Part shown: piece by piece, positions 5,917 through 7,704 of the stretch
Layout of the letters: the number at the start of each line of letters is the position of its first letter
How positions within the stretch are numbered: the first letter of the stretch is position 1
Origin: Nocardioides lianchengensis
Lineage (GTDB): Bacteria; Actinomycetota; Actinomycetes; Propionibacteriales; Nocardioidaceae
Reading direction: 5' to 3'
Length of the DNA stretch: 64,000 nucleotides
Assembly: GCF_900101465.1 (NCBI RefSeq)
Contig: NZ_FMZM01000001.1
Location: forward strand, 620,001-684,000
The notes under the pieces: model-generated
Database searches by the model: none
The model's input: the letters and a program-made list of their open reading frames with translations, nothing else
What the model was told of the DNA's origin: nothing
Made by a program: the position numbers and the translations under genes

Positions 5917-6636
5917 GTGCTGGACGCCGTCACCGACCTGCTGCTCGGCGGCCGGTGCGTCGGCTGCGCGCGCCCCGGACGGCTGCTGTGCGGGGGCTGC
6001 GAGGCGGCGCTGCCGGCCGGTGCCGGACCCGCCTGGCCCGTCCCGGCCCCGCCCGGGCTGGCGCCGCCCTGGGCGGCCACGTCGTACGACGGGGTGACGC
6101 GGGCGATGGTGCTCGGCCTGAAGGAGCGCCGGCTGCTCGGCCTGGCCCGCCCGCTGACCGGTCTGCTCGTCCAGGCCGTGGCCGCCGCCGCCCCCGCGGG
6201 ACCGGTCGTGCTGGTGCCGGTCCCGTCCCGGCCGGCCAGCGTGCGCGCCCGCGGCCACGACCCGACGTACACCCTGGCCGCGGGAGCGGCCGCCCGCCTC
6301 CGGCGGGAGGGGTACGACGTCCGCGCGACCCGGCTGCTCCGGACCCGGCCGGGCCTGCTCGACCAGGCCGGCCTGGACGCGGTCGCGCGGGCCCGCAACC
6401 TCGCGGGCTCGATGACCTGCCCGACGGCCGGCCTGCGCCGGCTCGCGGCGGCCGCGCCCCGCGTGCGGGTGGTGGTCTGCGACGACGTGCTGACGACGGG
6501 TGCGACCACCCGGGAGGCCCAGCGGGCGCTCGAGTCGGTGGGGCTGCAGGTGGCCGGGATCGCCGCCGTGGCGGCCACCCGGAGGCGGCGGGCCGAATCA
6601 GGGACCTCTGTCCCTTTAATCCCGGGCGCGAGGTGA
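5917..6636 (+). CDS. ComF family phosphoribosyltransferase-like protein
   Basis: Cytoplasmic protein of 239 aa with the ComF/GntX layout: an N-terminal zinc-finger region with CxxC pairs (GRCVGCARPG and LLCGGC) followed by a type I phosphoribosyltransferase fold. The PRPP loop VVVCDDVLTTGATT is near residues 187-200, and VPVPSRPASVRARG is the family's basic stretch. ComF proteins serve DNA uptake in competent bacteria, but the role in actinobacteria is unsettled. The GTG at 5917 follows GGAGG by only one base, so the start is not firm; no better in-frame start is evident. It lies between lpqB and hpf, as in mycobacteria. Confidence 0.88.
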   Translation: MLDAVTDLLLGGRCVGCARPGRLLCGGCEAALPAGAGPAWPVPAPPGLAPPWAATSYDGVTRAMVLGLKERRLLGLARPLTGLLVQAVAAAAPAGPVVLVPVPSRPASVRARGHDPTYTLAAGAAARLRREGYDVRATRLLRTRPGLLDQAGLDAVARARNLAGSMTCPTAGLRRLAAAAPRVRVVVCDDVLTTGATTREAQRALESVGLQVAGIAAVAATRRRRAESGTSVPLIPGAR

Positions 6637-6637
6637 C

Positions 6638-6643
6638 TACCGT
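6638..6643 (+). promoter_or_regulatory. -10 box for the hpf leader RNA
   Basis: TACCGT fits TAnnnT and sits one base after the comF-like stop codon. Transcription would begin near 6650, making a leader of about 368 nt before hpf. The -35 region is not distinctive. Confidence 0.4.
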
Positions 6644-6649
6644 CTCTGC

Positions 6650-6930
6650 ATGGAGTCCGTCCGGGTCCGTGGTTGCACCGCTGGTGCGCCTCTGGCGCGC
6701 GGGCGGCTAGCCGAAGCCAGTCGCAGGCGAAACGGTCCACGTAAGTCCGCCTCCGGGCGGACGATCACGGTGCGGCTTAGAGGTAAGTCCTGCCCCGTCC
6801 TTCCCGTCAGATGCGGGGACCGGCGGGAGAAGGCCAGTAGTGGCAGAGAAGCTGCGAACGTCTCAGCAGGCGATTGTGGGGTCGAAGACCAGGTCGGCCG
6901 GGCGGGCTCCATCTCATCCCTCACCGGAGC
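6650..6930 (+). ncRNA. candidate raiA-type structured RNA in the hpf leader
   Basis: This stretch is non-coding by codon use but rich in complementary segments: 6675-6679 with 6683-6687, 6745-6751 with 6756-6762 (7 bp, four-base loop), CCCCG 6793-6797 with CGGGG 6814-6818, 6799-6806 with 6824-6833 (8 bp with a 2-nt bulge), GCCA 6833-6836 with TGGC 6841-6844, GCTG 6851-6854 with CAGC 6864-6867, and GACC/GGTC at 6888-6895. Purine-rich unpaired tracts join them. Established knowledge: a large ornate RNA called the raiA motif occurs upstream of raiA/hpf genes in Firmicutes and Actinobacteria. Position and complexity fit; I could not run a covariance model, so the assignment is provisional. The rest of the leader, 6931-7017, shows only a GC-rich segment and the ribosome site. 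Confidence 0.55.
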
Positions 6931-7017
6931 ACGGGCCACTGCGCCCGCGCTCCGGCGCGCCCACAGGACGGCACGGATGAGCTGAGAAGGAAACCAACTG
7001 TTCAACGGGAGGTTCAC

Positions 7018-7647
7018 ATGGAAGTTGTGGTCACGGGGCGTCACTGCGAGATCACGGACCGGTTCCGCGATCATGCCGCGGAGAAGCTGACCCGGCTGGA
7101 GAAGCACGACCACCGGATCATGCGGGTGCATGTGGAGGTGGACTGTGAACCCAACCCGCGCCAGCACGACCGCTCGATCCACGTGGAGCTGACCGCCTTC
7201 TCGAAGGGCCCGGTCATCCGGGCCGAGGCGGCCGCCGACGACAAGATGGGGGCCCTCGACCTCGCGCTGGACAAGATGGCCGCCCAGATGCGCCGGGCGG
7301 CCGACCGGCGGCGCGTGCACCGGGGGCAGAAGACCCCGGTCTCGGTCGGCCAGGCCCTCGCCGACACCGATCCGGCTCCCATCGCCGAGACGGTCGAGGA
7401 GGAGCTGTCGAGCACCCAGGAACGTCAGGTCGGACCGATCGCGGTCACCGGCGACGGTCCGCTGGTCGTGCGCGAGAAGACCCACCCGGCCAGTCCGATG
7501 ACCCTCGACCAGGCCCTCTACGAGATGGAGCTCGTGGGCCACGACTTCTACCTCTACGTCGACAAGGAGAGCGAGCGTCCGGCCGTCGTCTACCGACGCC
7601 GGGGCTACGACTACGGCGTCATCTCGCTCGATCTCGGGGAGGAATGA
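7018..7647 (+). CDS. hpf: ribosome hibernation promoting factor, long form
   Basis: Cytoplasmic 209-aa protein that binds the 30S decoding region and dimerises 70S ribosomes into inactive 100S particles during stress or stationary phase. The N-terminal S30AE/YfiA domain is at residues 1-100 (starting MEVVVTGRHCEITDRF). A linker follows, and the C-terminal dimerisation domain is at about 150-205 with DFYLYVDKES and VVYRRRGYDYGVISL. The ATG at 7018 was chosen because GGGAGG lies five bases upstream and the family N-terminus begins there; the frame is open further upstream, but that part is leader RNA. A strong hairpin follows at 7669. Confidence 0.96.
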   Translation: MEVVVTGRHCEITDRFRDHAAEKLTRLEKHDHRIMRVHVEVDCEPNPRQHDRSIHVELTAFSKGPVIRAEAAADDKMGALDLALDKMAAQMRRAADRRRVHRGQKTPVSVGQALADTDPAPIAETVEEELSSTQERQVGPIAVTGDGPLVVREKTHPASPMTLDQALYEMELVGHDFYLYVDKESERPAVVYRRRGYDYGVISLDLGEE

Positions 7648-7668: not shown

Positions 7669-7704
7669 CTGGTCGGGGTGGCCCATCTGGGCCACCCCGA
7701 CCAG
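7669..7704 (+). terminator. terminator hairpin after hpf
   Basis: Perfect 16-bp stem: CTGGTCGGGGTGGCCC at 7669-7684 and its complement at 7689-7704, with ATCT as the loop. There is no T-run, which is common for high-GC actinobacterial terminators. Confidence 0.75.

Follow-up and report, generated by a model that had tools for sequence, protein, structure and literature searches.

The leader of the hibernation promoting factor gene hpf in the window (the whole 64,000-nt stretch of DNA analyzed, numbered from its first letter) is an ordinary member of the raiA RNA family; what is new is the pattern of a start codon at its predicted first base and a reading frame that stays open through the structured RNA. 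In the window, this leaderless frame (6650–6985, + strand) comprises 111 codons and a TGA, runs from the predicted start through the raiA RNA into the linker and stops 32 nt before hpf. Judged by comparison with related loci, the frame in raiA RNAs of the class Actinomycetes is very probably kept open by selection.

The covariance model of the raiA family (RF03072) matches 6656–6906 on the + strand over its full length (model positions 1–209) with 145.1 bits (E 6e-36), against a gathering score of 101.3 bits, and from this match we regard it as virtually certain that the leader of hpf is a genuine raiA RNA. An earlier note on this DNA had named a candidate raiA RNA before hpf, had given the accession correctly and had described a leader of about 370 nt; the distance from the predicted start at 6650 to hpf at 7018 is 368 nt. 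No Rfam family other than raiA scores above its gathering score in the 64 kb, and a search of the genome found no second raiA. When P1 is extended by its six additional closing pairs (ATGGAG with CTCCAT), the RNA occupies 6650–6912 (+). On its 5′ side lies a phosphoribosyltransferase gene (5917–6636, +; Pfam PF00156), which we take to be comF-like, the name being our own assignment. On its 3′ side lies hpf (7018–7647, +), which encodes the long form of the factor with an S30AE and a C-terminal domain (PF02482, PF16321) and is preceded by GGGAGG (7007–7012, +), read as its likely Shine-Dalgarno site; GAGG-type runs also precede hpf in the linkers of relatives. Behind hpf follow a NarL-type regulator, an AlkZ-like gene and secA. 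A 24-bp palindrome (GGGGTGGCCCATCTGGGCCACCCC, 7675–7698) 3′ of hpf has no T run and probably forms a terminator hairpin. In Nocardioidaceae, hpf lies on the same strand 3′ of the raiA RNA at 70 of 70 loci, and comF was aligned 5′ of it at 68. According to the accessible part of a recent study (PMC11706538), comF-raiA-hpf is the commonest known synteny, with comFC as a neighbor in 74% and the raiA gene in 66%. The RNA was found in 70 of 149 Nocardioidaceae genomes, 189 of 215 genomes of the genus, 101 of 393 genomes of a class-wide draw and 137 of 396 of a phylum-wide draw; the filters used for these counts lose some weak matches.

The earlier claim of a structured leader is borne out both by folding and by comparison. 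The predicted fold of 6650–6912 has a free energy of −136.6 kcal/mol versus −119.9 (sd 5.0) for 200 dinucleotide shuffles (z −3.3), none of which folds as well. Across 49 related sequences, the 68 pairs of the structure (counted as nested, without pseudoknots pk1 and pk2) are kept in 92.5% of cells; for slid structures the value is 34–47%. Covarying pairs in related hpf leaders, a check proposed in the earlier note, are present, with changes on both sides of 37 pairs versus 21.4 in shuffles. Bases 6793–6833, for which the earlier note had proposed mutually exclusive helices, correspond to P6 and its junction in the Rfam structure. Helix P1 is 6 bp longer than in the Rfam model, with compensatory changes in the extension: its pairs 1–4 are kept in 70, 69, 70 and 70 of 70 Nocardioidaceae loci and in 30, 30, 26 and 30 of 30 class loci, whole pairs are swapped (GGAG/CTCC in the window, GGCA/TGCC elsewhere), and double changes from GC to AU and from AU to CG occur among the 49 sequences. 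At 10 of the 70 family loci, the Rfam 5′ anchor was wrong and was moved using a motif that contains ATGG, a step that favors the start codon and the P1 extension at those 10 loci. Hairpin P2 (6678–6706, +) is formed in 48 of 49 sequences and ranges in length from absent to 61 nt. Outside the class (L307–L336), many of the best-scoring raiA RNAs are without P2 (GTTGAAAGTC), and several begin near GAAGGC, behind TATAAT-type −10 elements.

The −10 element TACCGT (6638–6643, +; TANCGT in relatives) lies one base behind the comF stop codon (TGA, 6634–6636), directly after the previous stop as the earlier note had it. Its position is fixed by conservation in 61 loci of the genus: with the A of the conserved ATGG taken as +1, T−12 is found in 98%, A−11 in 98%, C−9 in 97%, G−8 in 97% and T−7 in 98%. 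Because these positions are conserved relative to ATGG, the raiA RNA probably starts at its own first P1 base (6650); this exact start is inferred and has not been mapped. By eye, a CACAGCGAAWCTTCAG-like motif is seen just 5′ of the −35 region in a subset of loci of the genus (for example L037, L105, L109 and L118), and a GAACTTCGGGTGAAG-like motif is seen in the raiA upstream regions of another subset.

The base pattern at this predicted start is that of an initiation codon at nearly all sampled loci of the class type. Among 266 distinct loci of the Actinomycetes type, the first codon is ATG in 251 and GTG in 13, for a total of 264 with RTG. This set was reduced from 280 loci by dropping three without an A1 anchor (L032, L107 and L247) and removing 11 duplicates. 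It includes metagenome-assembled genome (MAG) records named only as Actinomycetota, and a search pattern in which T and G of the start codon were fixed supplied 120 of the 280 scanned loci. One MAG titled Spirochaetaceae (L210) carries a raiA RNA of the Actinomycetes type, probably a binning error. Measured from another anchor than the ATGG motif, and with the loci in the class being covariance-model finds alone, RTG stands 15 nt before GTCCGTGG at 130 of 130 Nocardioidaceae loci, 28 of 30 loci of the class draw and 1 of 46 loci outside the class. In this outside set (70 loci fetched, 24 not parsed, 46 used), RTG at other offsets is scattered (commonest −14, in 7 of 46) and never comes with an open frame.

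The frame set by this codon has no stop within the RNA at 248 of 264 loci, whereas the other two sense frames are open in 20 and 19 (L207 and L301, which have no RNA end, were left out here and among the later-fetched loci described below). The same bias is seen in 69 divergent representatives, with sense frames open in 64, 4 and 5, and in 107 distinct loci fetched after the idea arose, with sense frames open in 103, 11 and 11. These later loci stem from the pattern with T and G fixed in the start codon, and relatives of earlier loci are among them. The antisense frames are open in 69, 77 and 21 of the 264 loci, which indicates that openness as such is not rare in raiA sequence. The open frame could then be a by-product of G+C content and conserved RNA letters in a plain trans-acting raiA/ModT RNA that merely shares the hpf transcript. 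In keeping with such an explanation are the two antisense frames open in 69 and 77 loci, the conservation of structure together with the absence of codon bias, and the trans action demonstrated in Clostridia in what could be consulted of PMC11706538. It does not fit the low counts for the two remaining sense frames, nor the 46 raiA RNAs from outside the class, none of which has any open sense frame even though 24 are above 60% G+C.

The variable hairpins carry a second signature against which a by-product has to be weighed. The length of P2 appears set to keep the reading frame in relatives: across P2, the distance from the start codon to the invariant AGYCGANGCCAG block leaves a remainder of 2 on division by three in 240 of 266 loci, of 1 in 26 and of 0 in none. 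Frame 0, the one that no locus uses, would read ACGTAA and contains a stop. In frame 1, a T at the preceding base would create TAG; this base is A in 26 of 26 loci that use the frame, and it is T in 112 of the 240 frame-2 loci. Of 109 later-fetched loci, 94 use frame 2 at A1 and the other 15 use frame 1, each of these with A at that base; frame 0 is absent. Length differences between greedy nearest neighbors, each used once, are multiples of three in 39 of 49 differing pairs for P2 (binomial p 4e-11 if the pairs are independent) and in 29 of 41 for P4 (1e-6), and in 13 of 54 for the linker, 2 of 12 for P7/8 and 0 of 3 for P6. Since P2 and P4 move in threes while the linker does not, and since the stop-containing frame at P2 is used by none of the 266 loci, we consider the by-product explanation quite improbable.

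Openness is also in excess along the entire molecule. In 250 loci (16 of the 266 without an anchor were left out), the frame in use is open through block A1 in 247 (162 expected for random frames), A2 in 248 (167) and A3–A5 in 237 (159). Over the next 90 nt behind the RNA, it is open in 125 loci versus 150 expected. The excess thus spans the whole RNA and vanishes just behind it. The first stop precedes the hpf start at 145 of 251 loci in the ATG frame and at 106 of 239 and 89 of 231 in the other frames.

No conserved peptide accompanies this pattern, because codon bias is absent and the frame of the peptide changes between loci. At A2, frame 1 is used in 113 loci and frame 2 in 135, with unrelated peptides as the result, and at A5, where nearly every frame is open, the frames are divided 158/46/46 among 250 loci. 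Codon-position G+C is flat both in P2 (0.755/0.707/0.746) and in the window ORF (0.676/0.703/0.712, versus 0.82/0.649/0.95 in comF), and the ORF has no Pfam match. The earlier note had seen non-coding codon character in the leader; the flat composition agrees with it, and the open frame at 6650–6985 and its retention in relatives were missed. On these grounds a conserved protein was rejected, and selection, as far as it can be read from aligned loci, acts on openness and not on a protein. If the RNA had a second role as the message for a small, functional, basic protein (MESVRVRGC...), this would explain why start codon and openness are conserved. With two frames common at A2 and three at A5, no codon bias, no Pfam match and no conserved C-terminus, we hold such a protein to be very improbable.

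Another proposal is a classical riboswitch: raiA would sense a ligand and control hpf by means of an expression platform in the linker. In favor of it are the Rfam type of the family, Cis-reg; riboswitch, and the position of hpf 3′ on the same strand. The linkers of 70 relatives nevertheless range from 30 to 172 nt, are variable and, by eye, not conserved (the linker of L068, listed as 174 nt, includes 20 nt of a mis-anchored RNA end and was left out of the range). A conserved terminator or switch in the linker was rejected, no T-run terminator being seen by eye in the 70 linkers. The hairpin predicted in the window linker (6924–6955, +; from the minimum free energy fold of the leader) has no T run and is lineage-specific, not general; the whole linker of L012 is 49 nt. 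Trans complementation in Clostridia is, moreover, said to rule out a cis riboswitch in the available portion of PMC11706538. The chance that a riboswitch of this type operates here appears very slight.

The open frame is associated with hpf itself. Where hpf follows the RNA, the frame is open at 243 loci and broken at 11; at the seven loci without hpf on the 3′ side (L137–L140, L143, L159 and L164), it is open at 1 and broken at 6, and both loci without a start codon belong to these seven. The gene in place of hpf is presumably secA in four and an MFS-type transporter in three, named by us from the sequences. This contrast was noticed after the fact and comes from two families (f6 and f40) with genomes of 1.2–1.8 Mb; three loci that were too short, along with L207 and L301, were left out.

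Genomes that have hpf without the RNA offer a complementary view, hpf being present in 148 of the 149 Nocardioidaceae genomes and the raiA RNA in 70. In 17 of 20 raiA-negative leaders (L167–L186), the promoter is kept and followed by ATGG before hpf, versus 1.2% in shuffles. The raiA promoter is therefore probably also the hpf promoter, insofar as sequence retention can tell. Of these 17 leaders, 16 no longer contain the exact P1 partner of the initial hexamer, and pairing therefore does not explain the start codon, which probably outlives the helix around it after raiA is lost. A cryptic raiA remnant was rejected, since none of the 20 leaders gives an Rfam raiA match at E values up to 1; 5′ stubs of 27–32 nt found by blastn in three of them (L168, L170 and L171) are read as scars. 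In leaders that have lost the RNA, the frame spans just 2–75 codons. Leaderless ORFs of 28–30 codons are seen in 7 of the 17 (L167, L168, L172, L173, L174, L178 and L184).

To account for a frame that is kept open without a protein product, we propose that the leaderless ORF lets ribosomes cross raiA for hpf expression, in competition with folding. Translation and mechanism are both inferred, and we favor this proposal only slightly over its being wrong. A sigma-A-like promoter (TACCGT) belonging to the RNA would drive transcription of 6650–6912 as the hpf leader. In Actinomycetes, the transcript would begin with the start codon and so be a leaderless mRNA, with a frame that stops in the linker or close to it (at 6985 in the window). 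Two fates would then be possible. Folding would close the start codon into the last pairs of P1 and yield a stable raiA RNA; alternatively, a ribosome would load on the 5′ start codon before P1 closes, read through and keep the RNA unfolded. Translation would prevent premature (Rho-type) termination in the leader of about 370 nt, RNA polymerase and ribosomes would then reach hpf, which would use its own GGGAGG site, and untranslated transcripts would become mature raiA RNA. Folding predictions are compatible with a start codon that is partly free in nascent RNA, in a mixed and not clean manner, and closed in the complete RNA: the pairing probabilities of its three bases are 0.31/0.36/0.40 for the first 60 nt, 0.01/0.61/0.88 at 120 nt, 0.12/0.42/0.60 at 200 nt and 0.63/0.91/1.0 in the full RNA. 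The 11 hpf-bearing loci with a broken frame count against read-through, as do the shortness of the frame where the RNA has been lost and the trans action of raiA in Clostridia, and a literature search found no published evidence for translation of raiA. That read-through for hpf expression is the actual reason for the open frame, a link that is likewise inferred, falls somewhat short of an even chance in our estimation.

The same competition may be extended to regulation. The transcript would have two states, a folded trans-acting RNA or a leaderless leader, and the race between 70S loading and P1 closure would gauge free ribosomes and determine how much raiA RNA and how much hibernation factor are made; we offer this only tentatively. 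A fuller version, a switch on ribosome availability in which leaderless initiation senses free 70S ribosomes and the balance of translation and folding governs both hpf output and the amount of mature RNA, as a feedback on hibernation, is in our judgment unlikely. In the full fold as predicted, the leaderless start codon pairs within P1; the downstream gene is hpf, and the frame decays where hpf is absent, all of which would suit such a switch; there is, however, no direct evidence of regulation, and P1 pairs 1 and 2, which would hide the ATG, are only weakly kept (22 and 33 of 49).

Upstream of the promoter, the 3′ end of comF contains a lineage-specific DosR/DevR-like box (GGGACCTCTGTCCC, 6601–6614, +), assigned by its core match to the DosR consensus alone and centered at −42.5 from the predicted start. 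The genome carries devR and devS and has boxes beside cydAB and an acg-like gene, all of these names being our own assignments from the sequences. Besides 6601–6614 before raiA, boxes lie at L072:3017 and L072:4201 (near cydA, and between the acg-like gene and devR), and L073:3102 is near-perfect. In the whole genome, GGGACYNNNGTCCC has 25 strand matches versus 4 for a reversed control. At the same offset, at least 9 of 10 core bases are found at 4 of 160 raiA loci (column-shuffle mean 0.05, reached in 0 of 20000) and all 10 at 3 of 160 (mean 0.002). One boxed locus (L103, genome G279) has a DevR 99% identical to that of the window genome and was not counted as independent of L001; the kinship of L011 and L112 was not measured. 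A DosR box general to raiA promoters was rejected, with the full core at 2 of 70 family loci and at least 9 of 10 core bases at 4 of 160 (−55 offset). One raiA-negative genome of the genus (L167) also carries a complete DosR-like core (GGGACCTGAGTCCC); it overlaps the stop codon of comF and lies 66 nt 5′ of the start codon. On sequence alone, the window resembles the DosR/DevR hypoxia regulon in its GGGACCN3GTCCC box at −42.5 and in the presence of devR and devS, and differs in that a box with 9–10 of 10 core bases accompanies raiA at just 4 of 160 loci. A literature search found no DosR link of raiA.

Bacteria conserve raiA very well and its structures have been solved, but its mechanism is not known. 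A constraint across the class by which it stays translatable at loci with hpf downstream would point to a testable cis role beside its trans role and would link the RNA to ribosome availability. If true, raiA would be one of the few conserved RNAs with a tertiary fold that ribosomes must also read.

Among known systems, the closest is the raiA motif RNA/ModT itself (RF03072), with which the window RNA shares a full-length covariance match, the comF and hpf neighbors and the conserved core, and from which it differs by P2, six more P1 pairs, the start codon and a frame kept open. As far as the accessible text of PMC11706538 extends, raiA/ModT is an abundant RNA with trans action that influences sporulation and the growth transition in Clostridia, its gene neighborhood is judged a poor guide to function, and ModT of C. 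difficile is described without an ORF, the terms "ORF", "open reading frame" and "leaderless" having 0 occurrences there. Structures of raiA have been solved, according to the parts of PMC11751092 and PMC12286853 available to us. No reading frame in raiA was found in the available portions of the literature (including PMC11706538, PMC12286853 and PMC11477304), which did not cover Soares et al. 2024 (PNAS). The leaderless small ORFs of mycobacteria, as presented in the accessible part of PMC4633059, likewise have ATG or GTG at the 5′ end of transcripts upstream of other genes; the raiA ORF differs in that it overlaps a highly structured, conserved RNA and its peptide is not conserved. Control by leader peptides and upstream ORFs, such as that of Corynebacterium ilvBNC (PMC10272879, available in part), similarly places a translated leader before the controlled gene, whereas at raiA selection appears to act on openness over roughly 90 or more codons.
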